The translations under genes were made by a program, and so were the position numbers. This document shows, piece after piece, positions 1-20,616 of a stretch of 20,616 nt of DNA. The notes beneath the pieces are model-generated. The model made no database searches. It was not told the origin of the DNA and was given only the letters and a program-made list of their open reading frames with translations. Where the stretch lies: positions 79,504-100,119 of the forward strand of contig NW_003146292.1 in assembly GCF_000003605.2 (NCBI RefSeq), in the 5' to 3' direction. Source of the stretch: Saccoglossus kowalevskii (taxonomy: Eukaryota > Hemichordata > Enteropneusta > Harrimaniidae). Positions within the stretch are counted from its first letter, which is position 1, and each line of letters opens with the position of its first letter.

Positions 1-85
1 AACAAAAAGAAAAAGATGGTTATCTCAGAATTGTTTGTATTTTGATATGATATTGAAATGTTTGTTTTTATTATCGACATACTGG

Positions 86-197
86 GTGAGCATTCAGTTA
101 GTCTCTGGGTGGGGTGAGCATTCAGTTAGTCTCTGGGTGGGGTGAGCATTCAGTTAGTCTCTGGGTGGGGTGAGCATTCAGTTAGTCTCTGGGTGGG
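86..197 (+). repeat. 28-bp tandem repeat, four identical copies
   Basis: Units start at 86, 114, 142 and 170 with GTGAGCATTCAGTTAGTCTC and end CTGGGTGGG. All four copies are identical, which points to very recent expansion or gene-conversion-like homogenisation. Confidence 0.97.
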
Positions 198-1180
198 GCG
201 GGGTTAGAAAACAGTGCCAACATACCTAGAGTTATATTTCCACGGCCATGTATTGCATTTTATTAGCACAATGATGGTATACCCGAAAACACTGGTAACG
301 CTAATTCATACATTCATATAATTCTCTACGTGCCACCTGACTACAGCAAGTGATATTGCCATGGTAACCTTGCTTAGATTGTTCTGCACAAGGTGAATAC
401 AATAGACACTGCTATGTAGGGATTTGTTTACGGCGCATGTCAGGTGGATTTTACCGCCGGGTAATTATTTCAAGTAGTACAATGAAGACGTGTTGTATTA
501 CCGACTGGATTGTACTTCATTTGTATGGTTTTTATTCCGGACATGACTCGTCTGAGATACGATTTCCACCTCTTGTCAATTAGATATCCACCCTAGCAAC
601 CGGGCTTAGTAACGATTATACTGTATTAAATTGATATATTTATACACACGTGATTATTAATTAATTAAAATGATTTGCATACCACTTGGAATATCAACGG
701 ATGAAAGGAATCTATTACACCCTTAAACGACCAAACCAAAACCATAACATTGAACGTCATTCAAATTACAACACTTTGTGACCAATCATCACCTGCGTCT
801 GAGTTCATTCCTCGACTAATATAACTTATCTCATGAATATTCATGTATACCGAGGTGATGACTTCACAAACTCAAACCATCAGTATACACTTCGTGAGCA
901 CTGTTATACGGTGTAGGTTTACTGTGGTTATTACGTGACGTGCGGCCATGATTTAACTACAGTGGTGTTCATATTATTCAAGGCAAAGTGTGCGGCCAGC
1001 GAATTCGTTTGTCGAAAGTCACGGGTGGGAAACCGTTAGGGATACTTTAGGCAGGACACATCTCGTGGACCAGGTCTTCACAGCACGTGGAAACGCGGCA
1101 CATCGTATTTTGGTTTGTAGATCGCCGCTGTCTGTAAAGCACTCTTGTCACAATACATGTAAGCAACGTAAAGCGGAGTA
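198..1180. other. Left flank, no gene supported
   Basis: This stretch is AT-rich apart from its right end. It holds an X-box-like site at 355-368. From about 990 it becomes richer in G+C and probably forms the promoter and 5' UTR of the distal first exon. Confidence 0.5.
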
Positions 1181-1333
1181 ATGCCTCCTGTCCCACAAAT
1201 GATCCCGTTTGACCAAGACATGGTCCCATCGCGGACTACCTATCAAGATATGTTCGGGAAAAGGGCACTGCTACAACGTATAGGTATTCGACCGTCATCG
1301 GTACGAAGGCGTAATAATCCCCACCCCGCACCG
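1181..1333 (+). CDS. Candidate distal first coding exon (51 codons)
   Basis: An ATG at 1181 (G at -3) opens 51 codons that end at a GTATGT donor at 1334, in phase 0. An in-frame TAA at 1169 makes this ATG the natural start. The peptide begins MPPVPQMIPFDQDM, then has SRTTYQDMFGKR (residues 17-28), GIRPSSVRRR (35-44) and NNPHP (45-49). Joined to the phase-0 acceptor at 5986, it reads NNPHPAP-DFLEPKH, which looks like one continuous domain edge. The stretch from about 990 to 1330 is richer in G+C than its surroundings, as expected for a promoter and first exon. I infer that it belongs to the downstream gene from phase and from the sense of the junction. The 4.65-kb intron this implies is long, so an independent short gene remains possible. 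Confidence 0.68.
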
Positions 1334-4300
1334 GTATGTTCATAATATAATTGTTTTTTATACTATTGTTGATTGATTGATTCATTCATATGACTTGACT
1401 ATTTTTCATGATGTAATGATACGTCCGTATATATATATATATATATCAATTACGTTACCATAGCAATGAAGCCGAGTTGGTTGAGTTACGTTCTATTGCA
1501 TGGCCATATTCTTCACACACTAACGAAACACTCCTATCCCACCGACTATGGTACAATCTGACAATTAACCGTATGCAAAAGTTACATATAAGTTCAGATA
1601 GTCTGAAACAAATGAAATGCAAATAATAGCAAAAAGTCGGCTACTAGTAATCTACGATCGTCACGAAGAGCGTAAAAGTTGTTTTCCACTAAGGGTTATG
1701 GTTAGATCTCTGTTTAATACCTGGCGTGTACATCGTAGCTATTGCTGTTACAAAACGCGTCTTATTAACGAGTTTGTTCCAATCGTATGAATGCTATGTT
1801 GTCATTTAGTTATTGTGGAGTTTGTAATGTGTATCCTCTCGAGTTCTTTAAAACTAGTAATTTGTTAGTTTTGCTTTGTAATCGAAATACTTTAACAATC
1901 CATTCAGCCTCGGGCATTGGGCGAGCGCAGACAATTTATATTATGTCCAAACATTAATTATGTTATTTACTGTAAACACATTGGTATCAGACATCCGTCA
2001 CCATGGTAATTGTTATTTATGCCATGCTTTGATATTTTATGGAAGTTATCTTTCTTGTTGCCATGGTTACAACGCAATGCATTCGTTCCCACAGCACAGT
2101 CGTTTCCCGTAGATTGTGACGACACTGATGTTGATGTTTCCATAGTAACGAAATTACTTTTTTGCGGAAGCCCATCGATCATTCGCGAGGAAATTCATTG
2201 GTAAACAATAGCCCCGTCTAGAGCTAGTCGTAAAAAGTCAATCATTGGCCTGTATATCATAAACGAGCAACACTGCAGAACTGCATTTTTGTTTGGTGTT
2301 TTTCTATTGACAGTTTTTGTTATTAACTTTAAGATTCGGTTTATACGCTTTCTGTTCTGCGACGGAAACGATTTTATTGCCTTTTCGTTGCAACTATATA
2401 TAACGTTTTCAAAGCCAAACATTTCATTACGTCAGTTTGGAGATTAATTAAGTACATGTGCCTGCATATACATTGTAGGTTCGTTCATTGGCACAGGCAT
2501 TTTTATCTTATCATATATGCCTAACCCGTCTCTCTCTCGCTCCGTAATCACTTGAGTGATGTATTTTGTTTGGTCACTTATAAAACATCAGCAATGAAGA
2601 GCCTCTCCAGAAATGTTGATATTATCTCAATCAATCTTTACTAACTCCTTCAGTATTCTAAACATATTTACAGAAATTAATTAATTGTATTTGTTTGCAA
2701 TTGTACTGTGAGGTTTATAAACCTTAAAGTTAGTTCGTGATTCTTAGACACATACTTGGGTGATGGTTTGGTTATGGAATTTGCATTTCTCGAGTAGATG
2801 TTAGCACCTAAATCTATATACACATATGCTAGTAGACGCTCGTAATTTAAACGTCGTCCGGGAAATCCAGGACTATCTTAATAATTTTTAAAATTAATGT
2901 CACCTTCCATTAGGCGTTACAGTCGCTCCTGAGACTTTCCTCATTCGAGCACGATTATATTGTCCCTGTTTCAAGCGTGTGACCATTAAATATTTCAATA
3001 TCCGCAAAACACATTTTGAAACCATGGTTACAGTTATACAACTACTCTATTGATCACTAATTGCTTTGAATATCAATAAACATATTGTTTTATTGAATAT
3101 CATTAATTGAGTTTTGAATAAACTTAAATGAAAAATATAGTATCATAATTTAGTGATTGACTTCCGCTCCATTTTCATTCCGAGTATTAATAATAATGTA
3201 TAAGTCATAATCACTGACTCATACACCCTCTGTAGCGGCAGCATTGGTGCGTAGTTCAACACGACTGATGTGTGGGGTGTGGGTTCAAGTAGAGTCACAA
3301 CCGCGTTAATCGCTAAGACTTAGTGTGAATGTCTGATATATCCGAAACAACTTTTTCTTTATATATATATATAAATATTTATATTCTTTATTTAACTACG
3401 TCCGCAAAGAATAATGTACATGAAACTGAACGAATGGGAATCTTAGACTTGTTTAAAACACTTCATATACAAATGATGGTGTGAACTCCCTTGAAGAATG
3501 GTATCCAGTAGTCATGGAAACGTTTTAATATATAAGTATACCCATGTGTCCCATGGATATGATCGTAACTGTGTCATGATAGTGACCGTAACCATGGCCA
3601 ACTATGCTCTATATCAACTATGGTAATTCTATTATCGTCTCGTGTTTGCGTGGTGTGTGGTCGGTATGTAACCGTTCGGTTGTAGCCCCCTCATCGTTGA
3701 CACGTGAATGTCGACTGTGGGGCGTGAATAATTTGAACATGCACCATGGCTCCTTCGATTATGCAGTCTATACATCAATTTCGACATTATTTTTAAACAA
3801 TCTGGAATTAATATTAAACCATTCAGTATTACTACTGTAGTAATGTGAGTACGAGTCATATCACAGTTATGACGTCACGGTGCTTGGTAAATGTGGCATT
3901 CATGAGAAATCAATATAGAAACCTAATTGTGTGGTAATTTGTCATATTATTATTTGATCGGTAATCGGCCTTCATTGATTAATTTCATATTGATTGACTA
4001 GTAGTGTATTATTTCCCGTTGAAATATTATTATTCCGAGAATACATTTTATTAATATTATGATATTCATAATCGGGATCGTGTCATTGTTATGAAACGCG
4101 AACGCAGAGAGTACTTCAGCTGTCTTCATGGTACAAAGTTCGTTGTAATCACTGTGTTTGGCAAGTACTCATTCAACAACCTGTTCTGACTTTACCCAAT
4201 TAGTAATGCAGCCGCTAAATTTTATTTATATGTTTTGAACACTTTAAAGCCCCGCAGACAACATAACTGGACTGTTGTTATAGGTTTTAACAACAATACG

Positions 4301-7300
4301 GTTAGCGAGCAATGAAAAGCCCACCGAAGGTATGAAATACAACAATAGGTCTGAGCAAACACTTAATCAACACAGCCTTATCGCACGGGTCGAACTCTAG
4401 TGTGGTTACCAACCAGCTGACCTCGGTCCTATACATAGTTACCGGGCTGTGCTACCAATATATTCCGGGAGAGACGACTGATTTTTGACTAGTTGACGGT
4501 AAAGTTTATTGCCATGTCGTCGTATTACAGAAGTCCAAGTCCAACAACCAGTGTAAGTAGCGATACTGAATCGTTGCGGGGAACGCAGTTTGATTCAAGT
4601 ACATGTACCTCTGTCGTGGTAAACTAGGCATGTAACAATGGTGTTTTATTAATGGCCGTTCTGTTTGGCTTCGATCTGTGTTACACGCATCGTGTGGGAT
4701 ACAACACAGACAGATTTCAGAGCGACACACCGATTACACGACATTTAACAGACCAGCCACGCTTCTGAATAATGTGTTTACAACTCTGAAAAATTAGTCG
4801 AGTGATTGTGTGAGTGTTGGGTAGGGTTTCACTCTGAGTATTTACAATGGAAACTGAATGACGTGATCAAAGTTACAGGGTAGTTACATACTAAGTTCTT
4901 GTCACAACTCCAACACAAGTAGAGGGTAATATGTGCAAGTAGCAGTATAGCACTCATCGGAGGAGACACTATGCCTGTGGTGGTGAGTACCCCCTCGGAC
5001 GCCGTGCCAAACTGTTCTTCCGATTGTCTTTTTATTTACGATAATTGTGTCTGTTTTGTTGTTTATTGGCTGGGAACCGGAGAATGGGGTTAAGATACGC
5101 AATTAACGAAATGTTACAATGTATGGGTATCTGTACACGTGGTTCTTATTGATTGGCTCATATCATGAAATAATGTCGCATTTTCTCTTGCTGAATTACC
5201 AATCTTCACCGTAATCGCCGTACACTGTGCCATCGCCGGCACGCTTTGTAATCGCCGTACACTGTGTCATCGCCGGTAGGCTTTGTAATCGCCGTACACT
5301 GTGCCATCGCCGGCACGCTTTGTAATCGCCGCACACTGTGCCATCGCCGGTACGCTTTGTAATCGCCGTACGCCGTGCTGTCATCGACACGGTTCGTACT
5401 CGACACACACCATGTTGTCACCGGCACACTTCGTAATGGCCATACGCAGTGATGTCTCCGACACCATTCTGGGCACGTCTAAACCATCCTGGGTATACCT
5501 AATTTCAAGATGGTGGAAATTTTGTTGTTGAACAAAGGTTTAAAACATGACTATACGCCCCTTAAATGCATGTTATTGAAAAACACGACAGGTACATTCA
5601 TAGCTTTTCTCCAATGCTGGTACTTTCTATAGCTTCATCGGACATAGTTGATAATCGACAACTGAAGAATCATTCTTTGGTAGTAGTGGGAATGTTAGTT
5701 GTCCAGTAAAACTTTTTCAATGAATAGTGTTGGCATGGTTACAGAAAATTCCAAATAAATGTAAATATCAACAAATTATCTAAATAATTTATACGAATTC
5801 TGTTGAATAACTGATACAACTGACCGATATAATTGGACGTCAGTGTGCTAAACGAATTTAGATTAAAGAATGAATACATATGCCTGAGCCAGCTTTACGA
5901 AATTAAAATGTACTTATATTGAGTTGCAAGACATAGTGAAACTTATTAATAAATTAACCAAGAGTTGTTGGAATTGAACGTTACAGGACTTTCTGGAGCC
6001 GAAACACAGAGTGGATAAAGATGTGCGATTGCAGGAGCGCATCCAGGTCGCCGTAAAAGACTACCTAGATAGACTACGGGAAAGAGAAAATCCCAAAATA
6101 CCACACGCTTTCGACCGAGAACAGAAACCCAAATATCGAGGTAAGTCATAACAACGGTGTAATTATCGTTTACACCTCATGTACATGTACGCTGGCATAG
6201 AAAATGTTAGCTTACGTTGCCATAGTAACAAGTGCTTAACTCCGTATATGTCCCATGAATTACGTTAATTTCAGAATGTGTTGTTATGAGACGTCACGAC
6301 ACAACAAGTCCACCAAAGTTTTGTCAGTCACGCCCGCCGACACTGTTAATGACATTGATTGTAATTCCTGTCTACCCGTTACCCTGACGCATGAATCCTT
6401 CTAAATTCAATAGCCTCCTTTTTAACATAAATTTTGCCATAAAAATCCACTGAGTACCAGAGAGACGACACATCGTTGCCCTGGTAACACAGGTTAAGCC
6501 CCTTATTCTGCCAGGTCGGACATACAGACATATGAACTAAAGTTAGCATCACACCCATCACATAGATAAGAGCTGTGACTGCACATATCTAATAATCTAT
6601 TCCAGTAACCATGGTTACAGCTTTTACATAGTCTTCGTTAAAATAACATAAAAGTGATTTAGAAAATGATTGGTAATTTAAAGCTAATTCGCGTATCAGG
6701 AATTGATAACACGATAACACGATAAAAACTAAATGACACAGCAAGTTTGACTGTAAAACGCTCCCCAAGTTGTGTAACGTTTAACCGTCGCCAGATGTAT
6801 GCCCACTGAGTTGGAAATATACAATAGCCGCCATATTCCATCAGTGTGTTGATACTACTAACAATAAAACAAACGTCATATAGTGCTTTATGCGTTTGTT
6901 AAACTAGAGAGGTACAATAACCTGATTCCTGTTGTTTGTACGGGAATGTTTTGTTGGTCTGAAATTACTGTTCAACCAATTATGCGTCAATAAAACGGAA
7001 ACCATCGCTTCATGTTGTTACTTTTCTTCGGAGGGTAAAGAACAAAGTTCAGGAATTCCGGTAACCATAGAAATATCCGAAACTCATACTTCGTGAATGA
7101 CCTTATTGTTTACATTTGACTGGATTTCTACAATTGCCCCGAGAACAATAAATCAGAAATATACACACTTTCGAGTTTGGACGAAACCGTGAAAGTTGAA
7201 TTTATTGCGATGTTAACGCCTTTCACCTAGCACGAGGTGAATAGTTAAATGAACTGGCAAGTAATAACCTGTGTGCGACCTTCTAATACCCATGGGGAGC

Positions 7301-10300
7301 TTCCTGAAAAGACTGAAACATAACGGAGGAGTAATATAGCCATGAATAGTCTTCGCATTGTTACTAAATCGTAGCCGTAGACACAGGTTTGACAATAACT
7401 GAATAAACAAACAGTTATTTCCCATGAATTATGCCGTGCTTTATTTCATGATGTTTCTCTATGTCGGTAATAGAAGAAGTGAAGATGTGCTTACATGTCG
7501 TCCGAACAGCACAGATTCGCGAGCTCGACGTAAACATACTTCTAATAGAGGTGATGCAATGATCGAATAAAAGAACCTTCGCTGGTGAAGATGCCATTAG
7601 TCAGACTAGGCAGTGGTACTTCATTGTACACAACTCAGTGCCACCCGCACATTAACGTTTCAGTTCTAGAAGAGAAAAAAAAAGGTTAAAACATTATTTA
7701 AAAAGTTGAATGGCACGTGTACATGCTTTTTCTCTTTCTGATCTGTCTTTGAGTGATTCAAAACGACGAATATTTAGCTACGATCGTCTTTGTTTATGAG
7801 TTCATAAAATGCACTGATCACGCGATATAGTGACCTGGCAGTAGTTAGGGTGAATATTAAATCAACAGCAGCACCCATTTATTCATCCATGATTCATTCA
7901 AGTTATAAGTGCTGACATAATTGCGACTACGTGTCAATATTTGGCATGGTGTGTTTGTTTTTCTGCGTTACAGTTGCGTGACTAATCTAGATCCTGATGC
8001 GTGGGAGGTTTCACACGGGGGGGGGGGGGGTCTGATACTAATGTGTCTGTCAAACTGTAAAAATGAACTTCAGATAAAGATGAATGCGACGTTGACGATG
8101 ACATTGACGACGACGTTGACATTGACAGTGACGTTGACGACGACTTTGTAATACAGTCACAGTCACTGATTCCGGCGTTGAGTAAACAAGAAAATGCGAC
8201 GGCGACACCACAAGGTTTGCCACCGCTGGATTCAATGAATGTTAATTGTAATGGAATAGACCGCGTTCACGATTTAGTGAATAAATGAATAAACTTGAAA
8301 TTGTAGGACAATAAAATGTGGTACGTGCTTGCCGTGTGAATCTGGTTGCTATGCACGCTCGTGCCTAGTGACAGCACGGTAAATAGTCGGTGCCATACAA
8401 TACATTAGAAACACGCACGCAATACCTCCTACCGCTGTGACCCTACCAACCATTTGCACTTCATTTTCACTATAATTATGTGTTGTACATTACATAATTT
8501 ATCACCATAATGCATGTTCGTCATATATTGACCTGTGTAGTTGGGGGGTAATAAGGGTCATAGGTCATGTATCTTGCGTAATTGTAACGTTGTATACCCA
8601 TCTCGGGGTTACAGACTCAGTTTGTCTTCAACAACAACTTCTATCCTTAGTTTTCAAAGTATACAGTTCTCAAAACAGTTTAGAATTATTCATTTATTTG
8701 CATCAACAATTGTTATGCAATAAACACATTTTGTTTTGGGTGTATAATTTTTCTGCGAAATTAAAAAAATGAGATATTTTGCAACGTCCAAATATCAGAT
8801 CATTCCCTCTACAACAGGTAACCAAAACAGTGTATATTATTATATTACATTTGAATTGTTTTTGTCAGAAATGGTGTGCCCCGTGGGGTCCCTGCTAAAA
8901 GAATCCATTCATATTAGAACAATTGTGAAATGTATATTGAATTATTTCACCATACTATTCAATAACGATTCAATATGGAATCTCGTGGCACGGACCTGAG
9001 TTGACAGAGTCTGACTACAATTATATCATTGTTACTGTATTTTTTCGTTTAATATGATTGTTTTTCTTGCTTCATTCAAACTGTGTAATACATGTGTGTG
9101 GCTGCAGTTAAAGACAAGAAAGTGCTGTTTAGTTTCGTCAAACCATCTAGTGGGCAATGCATGAAGAAAGCCCGAGAAGCGGATCGTAAGCAAATGCAGC
9201 GTGAAAGTAAGACTATGTTGCATGGATACTGCTGCATTTCTACACTCCGCTTCAACAATATAATAGCTACCGCACCAATTATCGCATGAAAACTGCTGCA
9301 TTATTTTTTCTACACTCCGCTTCAACTAAAGCTCAACACTAATCATCATACTAACCTCCTCAAATTTTCACATTTTGTTGAAATAACCAAAGCACCCTCT
9401 GATCCAATCATTAACGCACTCACCCCGAATATTCACTCATCACAAAACGGGCCTTTTATACAACGATTGTGTCGTTTTTTTGACAGAAACACCAACTAAC
9501 TTGAATTCTGTAAAAAGGGGGACGAAAGAAAATAGTCACGCGTAAACAAATTATATCAATAACTGTGTTCAATAAAAATATTGTAATCGGTAGTAGTAAC
9601 TACGAAGTGGATGGCAACGGAGTGAACACATCAATTTGGCGGATTTGTCTCTGGGTAAATTAAACTTAGATTATCTGAAGCTGCAATTATTCTCTATATC
9701 TGTTTTCGTTATTTGTGAAATTATCATCCAGTCAAACCAATCATGTGTGTGTATGACCAACAGGTGGAACTTATCATGACTGCCTGCGTTGGCGACCAAT
9801 CTCTGAGCACACATTGAATTGATTGTTTTGTTGGTTGGTGATAGTTGCTTAGAGAATTAAAGCTTGCGTTATTTTGGCTGCCCATATTATGCTAATAATA
9901 CGCCCAATATCATTTGACTATTGTGTTTCTGCAACGAATTACTACAAGTAATAAAAGCTCGGCGGAGTTTCATTTCTGTTGGCTTCAAAGTTGACCAGCC
10001 ATGCAAATATAATCCTAGTCATTTTTCAATAAATACATTTCCAATAAAGTAAAGTAGTTTTACCGAACGACAACATGATTGGCGTGTATACATAGGCGCA
10101 CGGACACCTTTGACGCAATTTAAGTATTTTTCAATGATTTCAATAAAAACGACAAACCTTCAAATTACTATACTGTATTTTTTCCATATGGGCTAATTTC
10201 CATTTACTGATATTGGTTCTAATGTAGTGCACATGTAATACGGATACCACAATCCATTCAACACTGATAACTCTAATTTAGCTTTATTTACAGTATGTTA

Positions 10301-13300
10301 CAGTTGCATTTTGCTACAATGCAGCACGATTACAATAAATGAATCTGTATAACAAATATCACTTGAAACGTCAGGGTTACTTGGGTACCCGTGATGCAAT
10401 GTGACACTTTGAATCTGAAGTGTTGGGTTTATACTCGTCCTCAAAAATGTCACTGGAGTTCCGATACTTACGTCAAAGTGTTTAACTGTGGACGTTGTGT
10501 GAATATTAACTACTCGGACTTATTTTCTATACGCAGAAGCATATGCCCTAAAGGAGGTCGCCAGAGTAATCAATGCCCCTGAACAGAGGAGTGCCAATCT
10601 CACTGTACCGGCTCCACCACCGATGAAACCAACCTCTTTTGATTCAAGAAATGTAAAATACCAAGTGGTGAAGAGGCCAGTGACTCCAGTGGATCAACGA
10701 GATCATTGGATCGCCTGGAGAACTAAGACACCCTCAACGCCAGGAAAAGTGAAACCACTCTACAACCCACCGTTGGCGAAATACAACAAAACGAGGTACA
10801 AGCGATCCCACACACCATCGCCACCGCAGCCTCCAGCAATCAGCGAGGAAGAACCGCCCAGGCCAATGACAGCACCAGGAATAAGAGTGTATACTCCTCA
10901 AAACAGACCAATAGCGCCCTCTCCACCCCCGAAAACACCTGTTGTCGTAAGTATAGTGTTCAATTACATTTTAACCTTATTAAATCATTGTAATGGTGGT
11001 ATGTGCGTCGCTAAATTATTAACCATAAAGCCCCTTTCACAATTGGTGCCAAACAGGCTATAACGGCTTGCGACTCGAAATTGTTCCCGTTGTACGACTC
11101 GTTGTAGCCGTTGTACCACTTATTGTACGATCCAGATGCGACAAAATGGTCGCATCTCGGTCGGGAAAAAAACCGTGCTGCTCCGATATTTTGAGCGACT
11201 GACGCGATGAAAAATAATTGCACGACAGGCAGTACGAGTGTTGTGCGACTTTGCACGCACTCGTAAGACCCCGAACGAGTGTTGCACGAGTATTTTCATG
11301 TCGTACGATGATGCGTCTATTGACTATTGGAATGCCTGTCTTGCCCCCTTTGCAACGTTGTACGATTTTTTTTTCACCCCCAATATAAGCTCGAGAACTC
11401 CTGAGCTTTCATTCCAAATACGTACGATTTTATATATTGCTTGCGACTCAAAGACAACACTTCTACAACAGGACGGAAAAAATATTTTCGAAAAAAAAAA
11501 TTATCGCACGAGTGAGGCGCCAATTATGAAAGGGGCTTAATGCACCACGAGTGCCCAAAACTTAACACCTCTATTAGTACATATGTGCACAAAGTTTTAT
11601 ATTGTCGTTTTATTTTTTGTTTTTGTCTTTGAATGTTTTCATGCATTGTTTGTATTTATTGTATTAGTGTCAGTTAGTGGTATTTATTTACTGTCTATAG
11701 GAATCACCAATACCGCCATCACCACCAGCAGAAGACATTTACGATCAATCGACTGTTCCCGTGTGTGATGATGCAGCGAGTGTAGATGTACCATCTGTTC
11801 GAAACGTTGCATGTAGTCCGATGGTACGTCTTCAGTATGACACATTATTATATATTTGTCTCGTATTATAAACAGATTCTGTCTTGCTATTGCACGAGTC
11901 TTCCCTCTTTATCCAGTTGTCTAACTATTATTCTGATCGTGGTTACCGTTAAATTCACAATCGATAGAGCCATCATTTGTTATTGCGAGACTTACATTGT
12001 CTATCAATTAGGTTCATAGGTTGGCATTTATTCGTAAACCGTAATGAAGTAAGCGATCTACCCGGTTCTATGATTTGGGTGCGGCTTTCAACTTGACCAT
12101 TCTATGGGCTGTAAATCTTCCATACTTGAAATCAATGATAAACTAGGGGTGTACTTTGTGACGCCATTCACCACGACACCGCTGCACAATAACGGGCGAT
12201 ACATGACAGACTCGGCCTGTCGCTCATTGTACCCAAACACATTATTTAACTCGTTGTGGCTTTGTCTTTCATTGTACAGATCTGAGTCGTTGTGATCGCG
12301 TCTTTCGTTGTACAAACCACGTTAATCGACGCACCGTTTCTTGTGAACAGGAATATCAATTTATACATTATAATAGTAAAAAGTCATTTCGAAAATCGTT
12401 TAGACGCGCTGTTGTAGTTTAGAAAGTCAGAGCAGGTGTTTTTAGTTTTCACACGTAAGAACGAGAGTCTGGTATGTCGCATTCAATTCAATTGTATTGT
12501 TAATGAATGGTGTGATTTACGTTGTGATGTGGAATTTTACCGTTGCTGATTTCGTTCTACAATACTTGTATATTGTATGACTGTTAACGCCGCAGGGGTT
12601 CAACACGCCATAACTTAACTTGGCGATGAACATTGGGCGAAGCTTGTTTAAAAAAAATATTGGTGCGACGTACATTATAAAACTGTACTGTACAACAAAT
12701 ACGATTGATGACAATCGCTTATGTTGCTGGTTCGCCAGTGTCTTGAATCAGCCGCACCCACACTACACTGACAAACTCGGTACTCAGTTCTGATCAATTT
12801 CGTCACGTGTGATCGCAACATAATTTCTATATTCATAAAACCTATAATATATGCGCTGTTACGTGTTAACCCCAAATCAAATAGTTATGGACCGGTGACG
12901 TCACCCAAGCTAAAACGCAAACGTTCATGAACAACATTATTTCTAGTTTAGCGTTAAATAAATCAATAATTCAATGAAAAGTCCGTTGAAATTTCCTGTT
13001 GGCAACTTCCGGTGTAAATCATGCAAACGGAAACTCTGCAACATGTTACTTCTTAATGACATCCGCCATATTGTCTAGATTACCTGAGTCGTGAACTGGG
13101 AATGTGGCATATGTAGCACCAACTAGGATGGCGTGATTGCCATGGCAACGAGTTGTTAAGAGGGTAAAGTAAAATTCTGACGCTCGTTGTAAAGCGTCCG
13201 AGGAACTTGAAGGGTTCACCATGCCCCTTTCCGTGATAAATTTACCTGACAACTATTACTTCAATCCAATGCGATGGACGTGGCTTAGTAATGGAGTGAA

Positions 13301-14638
13301 TGCGACTGACAAGTTATCGCGTTATGCTGGAACGTATTCGACTGACAAGTTGCCACGACATGTTGGGCCGAGTTCGACAAACATGTTGCCGCAACATGCA
13401 GAACCGATCACATTAGCGGTTCATGTAAGCATGGAACATACTTTTACTAGTGTTACGAACACTACGTTGTAGTAATTAAGTTGGTATCAGTAAAATAAAA
13501 TAATGGGTAGTAAAGCAGACTAGTTGAGAGTTCTTAAATATACATAATGTATTTTATGATAGTATTCATGTTCACAATGATGAAATAACAACGTTTTTTT
13601 TTCTACAGAGACCAGACACCACGATGTCTGTCTCCAGTGAAGCTGCAAGGGAAATGATGCTTCATCCACGTCTCAAACCCTGGGTAAACAGCGCCAATGA
13701 CTATGGTAATACCAATAAGTATTCTTTACACCGTGATGCGAGTATATGTACATAATTCAGTATTGGATGAACCAAAATGTTATCGGACGCCACATGCAAA
13801 AATGTTAAACAGAAAGTAAACTAACAAGAGTATAAGTACACAAGCAGGCATGCTACCAATACGCTTGACGTTTGACAATAAAACTTCCTATTACTACATT
13901 TACTTTCCAGAGAAACAAGTTGCTTATAATTTGTTCAAGTCCTTAAATGGTGGAAAATCGGCGTCCATGGCGCGCTCAATAAGTGCAAATGGATACCAAT
14001 CACCTGTACCAGCTTACGAGAGGATGGTGAAATCCGCAAGACCACAGAGAGGAGTTCCTACGTCAACTCAGTATGGCTACGACCAATCTGAGCTTCACCC
14101 ACATCGTGCTGGTATGGAAGATGAAGTAGTCCGAGAGTGGATGCAAGAAATTGAAAAGAAAATCAACGAGTGAGTAAAATAAATAATCGTAAGAAATTAA
14201 TTGTAAGGAGTTAATATCAGGCCAAGAAAAATGTGACCGAGAAATGTGTTAAGAACTTTATGTTTGCATTCAGTACACCTATCAGGAAGCCCAACACATA
14301 TGCGTGCATATATTATCCTACTAACACCAGTTTTTATTGGGTTATTTCACAGGCGTGCAAAGACTCCACAGCCCGAGTTTCATGCTAGACCTTTATATCA
14401 GCTCCCAGTACATCGTCAGCAACGTCCTTGTTCCCGACAGCGATTGAAAAAGCCACCTGCGAAAGAATACACCCACGAGAACAGCTTCTTTGCTAACGCG
14501 AGTCCAACTGGACGTGGCCACTTCATAATCGCTCCTGACTGGGTTTCCGAAGGTTTAACAATAAGAAAATTGAACGCACAGGCATTGGCAAACAGAAAAC
14601 GCCATCCTCCACCTGGTTGCTATGCTGCACGAGCCTAA
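1181..14638 (+). CDS. Multi-exon gene for an unrecognised basic proline-rich protein, possibly cilium/microtubule associated
   Basis: The model is join(1181..1333 or 4514..4552, 5987..6140, 9108..9206, 10537..10946, 11701..11823, 13609..13705, 13911..14169, 14353..14638). Every intron is GT-AG, and intron phases after the first exon run 0,1,1,0,0,1,2 without conflict. The spliced frame is open for 1581 nt (526 aa) from the distal start or 1467 nt (488 aa) from the proximal start. Distal-form layout: residues 1-51 carry TTYQDMF and NNPHP motifs. Residues 52-145 are charged and largely helical in character. Residues 150-290 are Pro/Arg/Lys/Thr-rich and probably disordered. Residues 300-435 contain an aromatic, basic segment and the helix EVVREWMQEIEKK. 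Residues 432-526 end with GRGHFIIAPDWVSE. I see no signal peptide, membrane span or catalytic motif, so a structural or scaffold role is most likely. The axonemal suggestion rests only on motif style. AATAAA lies at 14817. Confidence 0.8.
1428..1446. repeat. TA dinucleotide microsatellite
   Basis: A 19-bp alternating TA run. Confidence 0.95.
2057..2070 (-). promoter_or_regulatory. RFX X-box consensus match
   Basis: GTTGCCATGGTTAC on the plus strand, read on the minus strand, fits GTNRCCATRGYAAC exactly. Near matches lie at 1997-2010 and 2136-2149. Function is inferred from the RFX binding consensus. Confidence 0.45.
4514..4552 (+). CDS. Candidate proximal (alternative) first coding exon, 13 codons
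   Basis: The ATG at 4514 sits in a good context (GCCATGT) and encodes MSSYYRSPSPTTS. It ends at a near-perfect donor, GTAAGT, at 4553 in phase 0, matching the phase-0 acceptor of the next exon at 5987. An in-frame TAG at 4490-4492 supports this ATG as the first codon. The same TAG overlaps a possible acceptor (TTTTTGACTAG). A 60-bp in-frame cassette exon, 4493-4552, spliced after the distal first exon is therefore a second reading. Ser/Tyr/Pro-rich short N-termini of this kind are common in disordered cytoskeletal proteins, but that alone is weak evidence. Confidence 0.55.
4553..5986 (+). other. Intron after the proximal first exon
   Basis: It holds the 37-bp minisatellite and an X-box-like site on the minus strand at 5729-5742. 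No other exon is needed, since the flanking exons join in phase 0. Confidence 0.65.
5211..5469 (+). repeat. 37-bp minisatellite, seven copies decaying rightward
   Basis: Units start at 5211, 5248, 5285, 5322, 5359, 5396 and 5433. The first four are close to GTAATCGCCGTACACTGTGC followed by CATCGCCGG. Copies five to seven keep the 37-bp length but diverge step by step. The period is not a multiple of three, and open frames on both strands here are by-products. It lies in the intron just after the proximal first exon. Confidence 0.95.
5987..6140 (+). CDS. Internal exon, charged helical region
   Basis: The acceptor GTTACAG ends at 5986 and the donor GTAAGT begins at 6141. Only the frame starting in phase 0 is open, because both other frames carry stops. 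It ends one base into a codon (phase 1). The peptide starts DFLEPKHRVDKDVRLQER, then IQVAVKDYLDRLRERENPK, and ends EQKPKYR. Regular spacing of hydrophobic and charged residues suggests one amphipathic helix of about 30 residues. Both candidate first exons join to it in frame. Strong splice sites and biased coding-like composition make it one of the firmest exons. Confidence 0.87.
6216..6229 (+). promoter_or_regulatory. RFX X-box consensus match in intron
   Basis: GTTGCCATAGTAAC fits GTNRCCATRGYAAC exactly, 76 bases after an exon donor. RFX factors bind this motif in ciliary genes. Regulatory use here is inferred. Confidence 0.45.
8074..8288 (+). CDS. Possible alternative terminal (or cassette) exon, Asp-rich
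   Basis: An AG at 8072-8073 (AACTTCAG) is followed by a frame open to TGA at 8286-8288. AATAAA signals sit at 8280-8285 (overlapping the stop), 8288-8293 and 8310-8315. Entered from the phase-1 exon ending at 6140, it would add about 71 residues: KDECD, a run of DVDDDIDDD-type repeats, then non-repetitive sequence with LIPALSKQENATATPQ and a terminal DLVNK. The acidic part is built on a GACGTT/GACATT hexamer array, so some openness is a by-product of the repeat, but the frame stays open well past it. A 141-bp cassette, 8074-8214, ending at GTTTGC would also keep phase 1. The acceptor has a poor pyrimidine tract, so support is modest. Confidence 0.33.
9108..9206 (+). CDS. Internal exon of 33 codons, Lys/Arg-rich helix
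   Basis: The acceptor GGCTGCAG ends at 9107, with a T-rich tract about 30-55 bases upstream. The donor GTAAGA begins at 9207. The exon is 99 bp and enters and leaves in phase 1, exactly matching the exon ending at 6140 and the one starting at 10537. It encodes KDKKVLFSFVKPSSGQ followed by a basic helix with KKAREADRKQMQRE. That helix runs smoothly across the next junction into KAYALKEVARVI. Phase agreement on both sides and continuity of the helix are the main evidence. Because it is a multiple of three, it could also be skipped in some transcripts. Confidence 0.8.
9207..10536 (+). other. Intron, 1.33 kb
   Basis: This is AT-rich intron DNA. Just after the donor there are two copies of a short sequence ending CTACACTCCGCTTCAAC, at 9228-9256 and 9292-9326. 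I see no other structure or gene. Confidence 0.75.
10537..10946 (+). CDS. Largest exon, proline-rich basic region
   Basis: The acceptor TATACGCAG ends at 10536 and the donor GTAAGT begins at 10947. It enters with two bases completing a split codon and leaves in phase 0. It encodes a short helix (AYALKEVARVINAPEQR), then a Pro/Lys/Arg/Thr-rich segment with YQVVKRPVTP, DHWIAWRTKTPSTPGK, PLYNPPLAKYNKTRYKR and repeated PPRP/PSPPP stretches. S/T-P pairs are frequent (TPV, TPS, TPG, TPSP), so phosphorylation or WW/SH3-type binding is conceivable. The exon begins upstream of the internal ATG at 10623. Splicing, not that ATG, defines it. Confidence 0.92.
10947..11700 (+). other. Intron, 754 bp, two thirds of it a MITE
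   Basis: This intron lies between two exons in phase 0. A transposon-like element fills 11029-11537. The remaining right part is T-rich and ends in a TATAG acceptor at 11700. Confidence 0.85.
11029..11537. mobile_element. 509-bp MITE-like DNA transposon with 22-bp TIRs and TAA target duplication
   Basis: The ends 11029-11050 and 11516-11537 are inverted repeats that agree at 20 of 22 positions. Both begin AGCCCCTTTCA and continue through AATTGG. Directly outside lie matching TAA triplets at 11026-11028 and 11538-11540, as for a 3-bp target site duplication. TAA/TWA duplications are typical of the PIF/Harbinger superfamily, so that assignment is reasonable but not proven. The interior repeats the word TTGTACGA in both orientations. 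Open frames inside are short and do not look like transposase, so the copy is non-autonomous. Confidence 0.8.
11701..11823 (+). CDS. Internal exon, 41 codons, Pro- then Asp/Val-rich
   Basis: The acceptor CTGTCTATAG ends at 11700, after a long T-rich tract. The donor GTACGT begins at 11824. It is in phase 0 on both sides and a multiple of three. It encodes ESPIPPSPPAEDIYDQ followed by VPVCDDAASVDVPSVRNV. It continues the proline-rich region of the preceding exon and moves into a more acidic linker. All 41 codons are open in the predicted frame. Confidence 0.85.
13203..13424 (+). CDS. Possible optional exon with three 12-residue repeats
   Basis: A 222-bp stretch lies between an AG at 13201-13202 and a good donor, GTAAGC, at 13425. 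It is open throughout, in phase 0 at both ends, so it could sit between the exons ending at 11823 and starting at 13609 without breaking the frame. It encodes NLPDNYYFNPMRWTW and then three 12-residue units at 13303-13338, 13339-13374 and 13375-13410 of the type STDKLPRHVGPS. The repeat period (36 bp) is a multiple of three, so the repeats keep frame. The acceptor lacks a pyrimidine tract, which is the main reason for doubt. Confidence 0.27.
13303..13410 (+). repeat. 36-bp tandem repeat, 3 diverged copies
   Basis: Three contiguous 36-bp units start CGACTGACAA, CGACTGACAA and CGACAAACAT. They have diverged, but all are free of stops in the plus frame described for the optional exon. Confidence 0.8.
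13609..13705 (+). CDS. Internal exon, 32 codons
   Basis: The acceptor is excellent: a long T run then CTACAG ending at 13608. The donor GTAATA begins at 13706. It enters in phase 0 and leaves in phase 1. It encodes RPDTTMSVSSEAAREMML and then HPRLKPWVNSANDY. The Ser-rich start leads to a short amphipathic helix, then the aromatic/basic HPRLKPWV. The split codon at its end is completed by AG of the next exon to give Glu. Confidence 0.87.
13911..14169 (+). CDS. Internal exon, 86 full codons
   Basis: The acceptor TACTTTCCAG ends at 13910. The frame enters with two bases and would reach a TGA at 14171, but a strong donor, GTGAGT, begins at 14170, so the exon ends in phase 2 and the stop is spliced away. 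It encodes KQVAYNLFKSLNGGKSAS, a Ser/Tyr/Pro segment with PVPAYERMVKSARPQRG, and a C-terminal acidic-basic helix with DEVVREWMQEIEKKINE. Reading into the intron would give a shorter protein, which is a possible retained-intron form. Confidence 0.9.
14353..14638 (+). CDS. Terminal coding exon with GRGHFIIAPDWVSE block
   Basis: The acceptor TTATTTCACAG ends at 14352. One base completes the split Glu codon, then 94 codons run to TAA at 14636-14638. It encodes RAKTPQPEFHARPLYQ, a very basic stretch (RQQRPCSRQRLKKPPAK), and HENSFFANASPTGRGHF-IIAPDWVSE. It ends RKRHPPPGCYAARA. The Gly-Arg-Gly-His-Phe to Trp-Val-Ser-Glu block looks like a conserved domain and would be the best query for homologues. 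I do not recall the family with enough certainty to name it. Confidence 0.92.
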
Positions 14639-14840: not shown

Positions 14841-15881
14841 TTAAAATGCAAAAAAGTCCTTAACAAAAATAGTCTTTTAAACACTATGCAATCACATGTA
14901 AAACACTTTTCATGATTTTTCTGTGCAAGGTAGTTCAAGTTTTTATTAAATATCAGCTTTAAATAGTTTAGTGTTTTAAAAATAACACGGTACATGAAAT
15001 AGGTTTGAAAGACCGTTCATGCAATTTATCACATGCACAGTGGTTTTAGAGATTTTTGCTTAGAAGTTATTTACATAATGTCACAGTGTATATCAATTGT
15101 AATTGAATCTATAACTCTGTAACGTTATAATTGGTTTATCGTAGACGGTTGCAGTTTTAATATGTATTGTAATTTGTTGACTGTTAATTTGTTACACATA
15201 TCTGATTCTGTTTCAAGAACTGCGTACTATATATTTAATTATAAATAGATTTTTCGTAAGCTCTAAAGTAAAACCGTCCATTTAATACAGACACAATTTA
15301 GAATCACTGCCGATCACTTATGAGTATACTGGTTATATAGAGTCGCCCTCTATTTATAGACTATTTATAATATTACTAGTATTCCCATAATTCCACGCAA
15401 TTATATCCGTCACATGTATACCGGTTGTCACTGGGCGTCATTTATATTACAGTTGAATTCTGTGTCAATATGGTTTGTTTTAATTTCATTTAGTGGCAAA
15501 ACGAAAATACACCATTTAGATATTATCTGGTCCTCGTAATACTAGTATGTGTACACTAAAGTAAAGTTTGACAAATTAAATAACCCAAAACCCATCAAGA
15601 TTGTGCGATATGAGAGGGTGTCTGTCAAATCTCGCGAGATGTGTGGACGGAGGAACGCCGAAAGTAATGTTTTGGTATGAATTCGATTTTCAAGTCACGT
15701 GCAATCTTATTTCGAGCAAATTGTACATAAATTGTTTGTAAATAAAACAAATCTGGACTTTATGCTATTTTTAAAATATAAAAAGTATTTGTCACACTAT
15801 GAGTATGCATGTTATACATGTGAACATTTGTTTGTGCTGTTAGCAGTGGAATTATTATTTGGAATTATTTATATGCACTGT
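14841..15881. other. Intergenic AT-rich DNA
   Basis: I see no supported gene. A TCTCGCGAGA palindrome lies at 15630-15639. A short ATG frame at 15610 (MRGCLSNLARCVDGGTPK) runs into GTAATG at 15664. An AT-rich minus-strand open frame of 112 codons near 14657-14995 is low-complexity and covers the 3' UTR. Confidence 0.6.
15630..15639. promoter_or_regulatory. TCTCGCGAGA palindrome, possible core-promoter element
   Basis: This is a perfect copy of the TCTCGCGAGA motif, known from animal work as a CGCG-type promoter element of TATA-less genes. It stands out in AT-rich DNA and lies 1.9 kb upstream of a candidate terminal exon. Its function here is inferred. Confidence 0.4.
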
Positions 15882-17395
15882 GTCATTGAGTGACTGATGC
15901 AGAGTAGCCGAGTGTGTCATTTAGTGACTGGTGCAGAGTAGCCGAGTGTGTCATTGAGTGACTGATGCCCGAGTAGCCGAGTGTGTCATTGAGTGACTGA
16001 TGCCGAGTAGCCGAGTATGTCATTGAGTGACTGATGCCGAGTAGTCAAGTGTGTCACTGAGTGACCGATGCAGAGTAGTCAAGTGTGTCATTGAATGACC
16101 GATGCAGAGTAGTCAAGTGTGTCATTGTGTTACTGATGCACGGTAGCCAAGTGTATCATTGAATTACCGATGAACTGTAGCTGGGTGTGCCATTGAGTGA
16201 CAGATGCACGGTTGTTGAGTGTGTCAGTAGTCGAATGTGTCATTGAGTAACTGTTGAAGAGTAACCAAGTTTATCATTGAGTTACTGATGCACGGTAGCT
16301 GAATGTGTCATTGAATTACCGATGAACTGTAGCTGGGTGTGCCATTGAGTGACAGATGCACGGTTGTTGAGTGTGTCAGTAGTCGAATGTGTCATTGAGT
16401 AACTGTTGAAGAGTAGCCAAGTTTATCATTGAGTTACTGATGCACGGTAGCTGAATGTGTCATTGAATTACCGATGAACTGTAGCTGGGTGTGCCATTGA
16501 GTGACAGATGCAGAATAGCCAAGTGTGTCATTGAGTTACTGATGTACGGTAGCCAAGTGTGTCATTGAGTTACTGATGCACGGTAGCCAAGTGTGTCATT
16601 GAGTTACTGATGCACGGTAGCCGAGTGTGTCATTGATTTACTGATGTACGGTAGCCAAGTGTGTCATTGAGTTACTGATGCACGGTAGCCAAGTGTGTCA
16701 TTGAGTTACTGATGCACGGTAGCCAAGTGTGTCATTGAGTTACTGATGCACGGTAGCCGAGTGTGTCATTGATTTACTGATGTACGGTTGCCAAGTGTGT
16801 CATTGAGTTACTGATGCACGGTAGCCAAGTGTGTCATTGAGTTACTGATGCACGGTAGCCAAGTGTGTCATTGAGTTACTGATGCACGGTAGCCAAGTGT
16901 GTCATTGAGTTACTGATGCACGGTAGCCAAGTGTGTCATTGAGTTACTGATGCACGGTAGCCAAGTGTGTCATTGAGTGACTGATGCACGATAGCTGAGT
17001 GTGTCTTTGAGTGGCGGATGAACTGTAGCTGGGTGGGCCATTGAGTGACAGATGCACGGTTGTCGAGTGTGCTGAGCGTTCCATTTAGTAACTGATGCAG
17101 AATATTCGAATGTGTCACTGGGTGACTGATACAGAGTGACCGAGTACGTCATTGAGTGATACAGAATAGCCAAGCGTGCCATTGAACGACTGATAAGAGT
17201 AGCCTAGTATGTTATTGAGTAACTAATGTATGGTATCCTAGCGTGTCATTGAGTGACTGATACAGATAGTTAAGTATGTCATTGAGTGAATGTTGTACTC
17301 TAGCCTGATGTGTCATTGAGTGACTGATATACAATAGTCGAGTGTCATTGTGTCTGAATTAGTGTGTCATTGAGTGACTTATGTACGTCAATTGT
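15882..17395 (+). repeat. 1.5-kb minisatellite of about 34-bp units with higher-order structure
   Basis: About 44 units of the form GTGTGTCATTGAGTTACTGA followed by TGCACGGTAGCCAA. The middle part, about 16520-16980, is nearly uniform and both flanks are diverged. A 152-bp higher-order unit repeats near 16160-16500 (for example the GAATTACCGATGAACTG block at 16161, 16313 and 16465). A 136-bp unit (four monomers) repeats at 16635 and 16771, marked by GATTTACTGATGTACGG. Open frames across it on the minus strand are repeat by-products. Confidence 0.97.
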
Positions 17396-19720: not shown

Positions 19721-20027
19721 TTGGAAAAGCTTTTCCGACGAACAGCTCCATTGGCTGCACCTGAGATAGTGCTTGACAGGAATGGAGTGATAGGACAGTT
19801 TTACGGTTATGTTTAGTGTCATAAGTTGAACAATATAGCATACTTTCTACTATCGGCAGGTCCAGCAAAGCATTGTAGTTATGGTAACGGCACACTGGAT
19901 ATCAAGTAAGGCATATATAAAACAATTGTCTTTAGTATTTATGCAAAAATATGTATTCACAGCAAACTCATGAAATTACTCACACTAATACCTGTCCCGA
20001 AGTATCAGTTCTTTGTGGTTATTAGTT

Positions 20028-20224
20028 GCGTTCACGCACAGCTCCTTAGCACGGGCTAAGAGTTGTCAAATTCCTTAGCCCGTGCTAAGAAAACGTGCGT
20101 GAACGCTTAGCACGGGCTAAGAAATGCTAAGTACGGGTTAAATCTCATCCGAATTTAAGACGCGGTCTAGACCCTTAGCACGGGCTAACGAAGTATGCGC
20201 GAACGCTTAGCCCAGGGCTAAGCG
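20028..20224. mobile_element. Compact palindromic MITE-like element
   Basis: The left part is a nested hairpin. GCGTTCACGCAC at 20028-20039 pairs with GTGCGTGAACGC at 20095-20106, and CTTAGCACGGGCTAAG at 20045-20060 pairs with CTTAGCCCGTGCTAAG at 20074-20089. Further copies of the 16-mer lie at 20106-20121 and (one end changed) 20174-20189. The right part ends in CGCTTAGCCC-A-GGGCTAAGCG at 20204-20224. Target duplications are not clear, so the element limits are approximate. Confidence 0.65.
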
Positions 20225-20616
20225 CCCTCTGCGGCGACCTTTGGGTGTGAAAATTGTCCCATGTTCGTATAACGACTCTATTCCACGAGTCATTACTCCG
20301 CGCTCGCTTCCACATTGAAAGGGTCGCTGTAGTAGAGCGTACAGCAGCTCCAATTGTTATATCCTGGCCTTATTATGTATACAGCAATAGGCTAGTCTAC
20401 AAATATACCCATGATGCATTGTTCTTCTCATCATGGCTGCCTACATGATATAAATACTGTCCAGGTTAGTTAATCACAATCCAGCCATCCTGTCTTCTAT
20501 ATAATATTGGTGAACATATAACATGGTGGCAGCAATAAACTGATATGTTAAGACTCTCAACACTATATTATTAACGATTTGAAGTCAAACAACGGTCAAT
20601 TTGGAAGCCATAAAGA
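20225..20616. other. Right edge, no gene supported
   Basis: Ordinary AT-rich sequence. A short plus-strand frame at 20254-20448 has no splice or composition support. Confidence 0.6.

Follow-up and report, generated by a model that had tools for sequence, protein, structure and literature searches.

The question raised by this locus is whether eight short open stretches, none of them longer than 410 bases (b), form a single gene, and what the encoded protein of 526 residues would do. They lie on the forward strand of a contig of Saccoglossus kowalevskii (NW_003146292.1, positions 79,504 to 100,119); this whole stretch of 20,616 b is called the window here, and positions are counted from its first letter. 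An initial annotation, made from the letters alone, had joined the eight pieces and suggested an axonemal or microtubule-bound protein. We found that they almost certainly constitute one real spliced nuclear protein-coding gene of this acorn worm (a hemichordate), and that the model first drawn is probably correct in seven of its eight exons. A cytoskeletal or axonemal scaffold role for the protein is tentative.

Gene model and coding signal

The exons of the model and the end of the transcript were placed as follows.

1181-1333, forward strand: exon 1, from the proposed ATG to the donor (score 8.4), an open frame for residues 1-51 with NNPHP at residue 45
5987-6140, forward strand: exon 2, GT-AG, codon score 7.7, both ends recovered by chaining
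9108-9206, forward strand: exon 3, GT-AG, codon score 7.2, both ends recovered by chaining
10537-10946, forward strand: exon 4, the longest (410 b), proline-rich and basic, codon score 11.4, acceptor recovered by chaining
11701-11823, forward strand: exon 5, GT-AG, weak codon score of 0.9, both ends recovered by chaining
13609-13705, forward strand: exon 6, GT-AG, codon score 3.4, both ends recovered by chaining
13911-14169, forward strand: exon 7, codon score 16.4, with a helix predicted at its end by AlphaFold2 (AF2)
14353-14638, forward strand: exon 8, codon score 19.7, with GRGHFIIAPDWVSE from residue 485 and the stop TAA
14817-14822, forward strand: AATAAA, a likely polyadenylation signal 179 b past the stop

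The pieces fitted together as the initial annotation had described: all seven introns were GT-AG, the intron phases were 0,1,1,0,0,1,2, and the join gave 526 codons followed by TAA. In each of the eight exons the frame used was the only forward frame free of an internal stop. Scored with splice matrices, exon 2 had the strongest donor (11.8) and exon 6 the strongest acceptor (12.0), while the acceptor of exon 2 (3.0), the donor of exon 6 (4.3) and the donor of exon 4 (5.1) were the weakest sites.

Codon usage was evaluated with a model trained on 1,658 codons, taken from two open frames on the gene's own contig and from dynein motor-domain matches. A genome-wide listing gave 68 such matches, and five stretches of these were used, in which 14 of 18 matches were retained with their ends trimmed and four omitted, three of them for an internal stop. 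Stop-free segments of the window's introns served as background; the counts below are not probabilities, because these segments overlap and the background comes from the same introns. The codon bias of exons 7 and 8 was clear, their scores being equalled by none of 73 and none of 33 segments, respectively. The bias was good in exons 2 and 3, whose scores were reached in 3 of 652 and 6 of 1847 segments, respectively; it was weak in exon 5 (75 of 1129) and exon 6 (56 of 1847). Exon 4 scored 11.4 against 21.1 in one antisense frame, and no stop-free intron segment was as long.

Splice and codon scores were then combined in chains, with a penalty per intron of 9, 11 or 13 (our own choice) and 200 dinucleotide shuffles as control. 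The given chain scored 87.0, 73.0 and 59.0 at the three penalties, and it was reached by 156, 14 and 0 of the 200 shuffles, whose maxima were 147.8, 80.3 and 54.4. Free chaining gave at best 136.8, 103.5 and 76.6 on the forward strand and 125.4, 81.0 and 51.1 on the reverse strand. The junctions proposed initially were largely recovered: at penalties 11 and 13 the best forward chain contained the exact ends of exons 2, 3, 5, 6, 7 and 8 together with the acceptor of exon 4, the inner part of exon 4 being cut otherwise than in the given model. At penalty 9 it extended beyond exon 8. Taken together, exons 2-8 are well supported.

No further internal exon of 30-700 b with compatible phase was found in the seven introns when both of its splice sites had to score 4 or more, a cut that exon 2, with its acceptor of 3.0, would itself miss. 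Within intron 2, an additional acidic exon (8074-8214) was considered and rejected; it kept the frame, but its acceptor scored -2.7 and the chain containing it 81.4 against 87.0. This candidate overlaps a GACGTT tandem repeat.

The protein was also searched against its own genome (572 Mb in 4,830 contigs, with only the best candidates scored). At E up to 1 there were eight matches, one for each exon, and no second copy of the gene among the scored candidates; as far as this search reached, the gene appears to be single-copy. No relative was found in the prokaryote genomes scanned.

The protein and its proposed role

The basic and disordered make-up noted initially held up. The protein has an isoelectric point of 10.03, a net charge of +36 and 13.5% proline, and in a charge-hydropathy analysis 388 of 476 segments of 51 residues fell on the disordered side. 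That it is basic and largely disordered is thus supported. Single-sequence AF2 gave helices in the pieces encoded by exons 7 and 8, but both models were of low overall confidence. For the exon 7 piece the mean predicted local distance difference test (pLDDT) score was 64, and helices were predicted for residues 2-13, 34-40 and 68-84, the last a block with pLDDT of about 90; for the exon 8 piece it was 62, with one helix at residues 70-83. Putative helices in exon 2 and across the junction of exons 3 and 4 were seen by eye only.

Based on these features, the protein would be a largely unfolded scaffold in which short predicted helices are linked by long proline- and serine-rich linkers. Its helices and basic patches may dock onto a surface that is acidic or polymeric, of which a microtubule or an axoneme would be the simplest case, and the protein would gain its shape only on binding. 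A microtubule or axoneme as the partner is a reasonable guess. Microtubule inner proteins tend to be extended basic chains that carry short helices but lack a globular domain, and the acorn-worm protein resembles members such as Pierce1 and Pierce2 in this general style only; it differs from them in that its sequence matched none of the solved chains. Both are described as microtubule inner proteins of axonemal doublets (PMC8595878).

Several observations weigh against the ciliary reading. The whole protein had no match in the PDB at E up to 10, solved ciliary structures included; these were single-sequence searches with no profile, and distant homology is beyond their reach. The density of X-box-like sites was 1.4-2.0 per kb at tektin genes, 0.9-2.8 in flanks and other stretches and 2.4 at the present gene. 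Moreover, basic disordered proteins have nuclear, membrane-associated and actin-related functions as well. For the initial suggestion of an axonemal or microtubule-bound protein no positive evidence was found: no solved ciliary protein matched in these searches, and the X-box comparison did not distinguish the gene.

Residues 313-526 and 1-159 each matched one designed protein in the PDB (E 0.11 and 0.96), and no homology to a known axonemal microtubule inner protein appeared in the single-sequence PDB searches (whole protein, 1-159 and 313-526) or in Pfam. No Pfam family was above its cut-off for the whole protein. Residues 104-161 gave a weak match to the Sec3 N-terminal PIP2-binding domain (PF15277, E 0.052), but at 14 bits against a curated cut-off of 25.3, and this match is probably due to chance. 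When exons 4, 7 and 8 were searched singly, the sole match was that of exon 7 to DUF7208, below threshold at E 0.12.

In the X-box comparison, a single-mismatch site (355-368) was located 813 b upstream of the ATG of the present gene. The control comprised 3 kb 5' of the first matching exon in four tektin genes, two of the four stretches being partly N; two of the four contained a site with one mismatch or none, and one of these two had a perfect site. Because the density at tektin genes was no higher than elsewhere, the test speaks neither for nor against a ciliary role. Palindromes of the form GTTRCCATGGYAAC with at most two mismatches occurred at 10 sites over 1-14638 against 8 in 56,293 known flank bases (P = 0.0012, uncorrected, for a stretch picked after the sites were seen). 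As ciliary evidence this crowding was rejected: 9 of the 10 sites were intronic, and the tektin control had no promoter preference. The palindrome GTTGCCATGGCAAC was found at 121 places genome-wide against 0 for the same letters reversed, and its degenerate copies crowd the introns of the present gene (355-13149). They may be RFX-like sites or a repeat.

A further form of the ciliary reading is a hemichordate- or ambulacrarian-restricted structural component of cilia or of the sperm tail, with NNPHP and GRGHFIIAPDWVSE as putative binding motifs new to solved axonemes, and we regard it as improbable. There is a precedent for lineage-restricted ciliary genes: lophotrochin and trochin are described as lineage-restricted genes expressed in the ciliary bands of spiralians (PMC7441323). 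The present gene is similar in lacking a known domain and in belonging to a ciliated marine invertebrate. It differs in being from a hemichordate and not a spiralian, and the comparison is one of descriptions and not of sequences. Six peptide strings taken from or modelled on the NNPHP and GRGHFIIAPDWVSE blocks, both of which had looked conserved at first inspection, were absent from the literature searched, where no joint mention of NNPHP and cilia was found either.

On the other hand, the same gene could encode a disordered adaptor acting outside cilia, either regulated by kinases, binding SH3 domains or RNA, or located in the nucleus, through SP/TP, PxxP and basic stretches. The protein contains 14 SP/TP and 17 PxxP motifs together with its high basic charge, and the PDB and X-box work yielded nothing specific to cilia. 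Nevertheless, the 526 residues contain no PPxY motif and no known domain, and the adaptor has no positive support of its own. We consider its chances to fall a little short of even, and it is at least as likely as the ciliary role.

The first exon and alternative starts

Exon 1 is the weak point of the gene model. Its codon score of -9.9 was equalled by 437 of the 652 stop-free intron segments, that is, it has no codon bias, which counts against exon 1 as drawn. Moreover, it was absent from the best forward chain at all three penalties, the 5' side being filled with short, noise-like pieces. Four other stretches could start the coding sequence.

4312-4329, forward strand: possible alternative first exon in intron 1, phase 0, from donor and chain score
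4514-4552, forward strand: possible alternative first exon in intron 1, MSSYYRSPSPTTS, phase 0 (fits exon 2), from donor and chain score
4971-4982, forward strand: possible alternative first exon in intron 1, phase 0, from donor and chain score
13221-13424, forward strand: possible alternative first exon in intron 5, phase 0, 204 b open, donor 7.7

The three candidates of intron 1 had donors of 6.3, 7.8 and 9.6, and chains that scored slightly above that with exon 1 (89.1, 95.0 and 100.4 against 87.0 at penalty 9). As alternative first exons they are unproven. The candidate at 13221-13424 was equalled in 4 of 500 shuffles of intron 5, seven introns having been looked at, and its codon score was -17.2.

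A real gene with another 5' end, in which exon 1 is wrong or is one among alternative first exons starting at 4312, 4514 or 4971, is accordingly a possibility, and one that we hold to be rather doubtful. Exon 1 offers 51 open codons and a good donor, and an in-frame TAA at 1169 lies 12 b 5' of its ATG; but when 1-5986 was shuffled 500 times, 36 of the shuffles contained a phase-0 start exon no shorter than 150 b whose donor scored 8.0 or more. Because chance matches exon 1 this often, it is plausible and not proven. A differing 5' end can be compatible with either proposed role of the protein.

That there is no gene at all, open stretches having been strung together by chance, is very improbable. 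Chains of many short exons can arise by chance at equal length (20 of 200 shuffles equalled or exceeded the real maximum when chaining by length only, a test dropped as non-discriminating), most shuffles reached the given chain at penalty 9, and the other strand outscored it at penalties 9 and 11, but at penalty 13 no shuffle reached it and the other strand fell below it, exons 7 and 8 exceeded every stop-free intron segment of their length, and chaining recovered the ends of six exons independently.

Genomic surroundings and significance

The contig (C3695) is N at 61,540 of its 138,449 bases. Two neighbouring exons were recognisable on it, one of an ANF_receptor (receptor ligand-binding) domain about 38 kb 5' of the gene (E 1.6e-30) and one of an ABC transporter TMD0 about 43 kb 3' (E 3.7e-7); as synteny, these two point to no function. 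Within intron 4, the stretch 11024-11542 has 27-b terminal inverted repeats that are 89% complementary and 465 b apart, and it resembles a non-autonomous DNA transposon that has integrated there. Tandem repeats occur 5' of the gene (84-198, a perfect 28-b repeat in 4.1 copies), within intron 1 (5211-5445, a 37-b repeat) and 3' of the gene (15879-17345, a minisatellite in which a 34-b unit is repeated about 43 times, partly with 152-b higher-order units). A hairpin-rich element built of AGCACGGGCTAAG units lies at 20025-20240. The best 40 of its 377 genome candidates, its own copy included, had 96-100% identity near full length, and the element is thus a young and abundant repeat.

The same genome assembly contains a mitochondrial sequence of 17,037 b (C4830). 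When its COX1 was aligned with the best PDB match (7o37), seven ATA codons stood at four Ile, two Val and one Leu positions and at no Met, and the sole AAA codon of the aligned stretch stood at Lys; the mitochondrial tRNA-Lys anticodon was UUU. With gene names other than COX1 assigned by eye, nad5 adjoins cob, cox1 is encoded on the opposite strand, and the rRNA region is followed by nad2 and nad1. Two papers give AUA as Ile, AAA as Lys, the anticodon UUU, an inverted COX1, a moved ND1 or ND2 and nd5 beside cob for the mitochondria of Saccoglossus kowalevskii (PMC3121625, PMC2697986), and C4830 matches those accounts in codon use, anticodon and gene order. The mitochondrial sequence thus makes a Saccoglossus acorn worm the most likely source of the window.

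So, the gene is a real, ordinary and uncharacterised one, and a gene of short exons could be read almost correctly from raw sequence. Its product is one more uncharacterised protein, among many such genes in an animal genome. If it were a lineage-restricted axonemal protein, it would inform how cilia diversify among deuterostomes.

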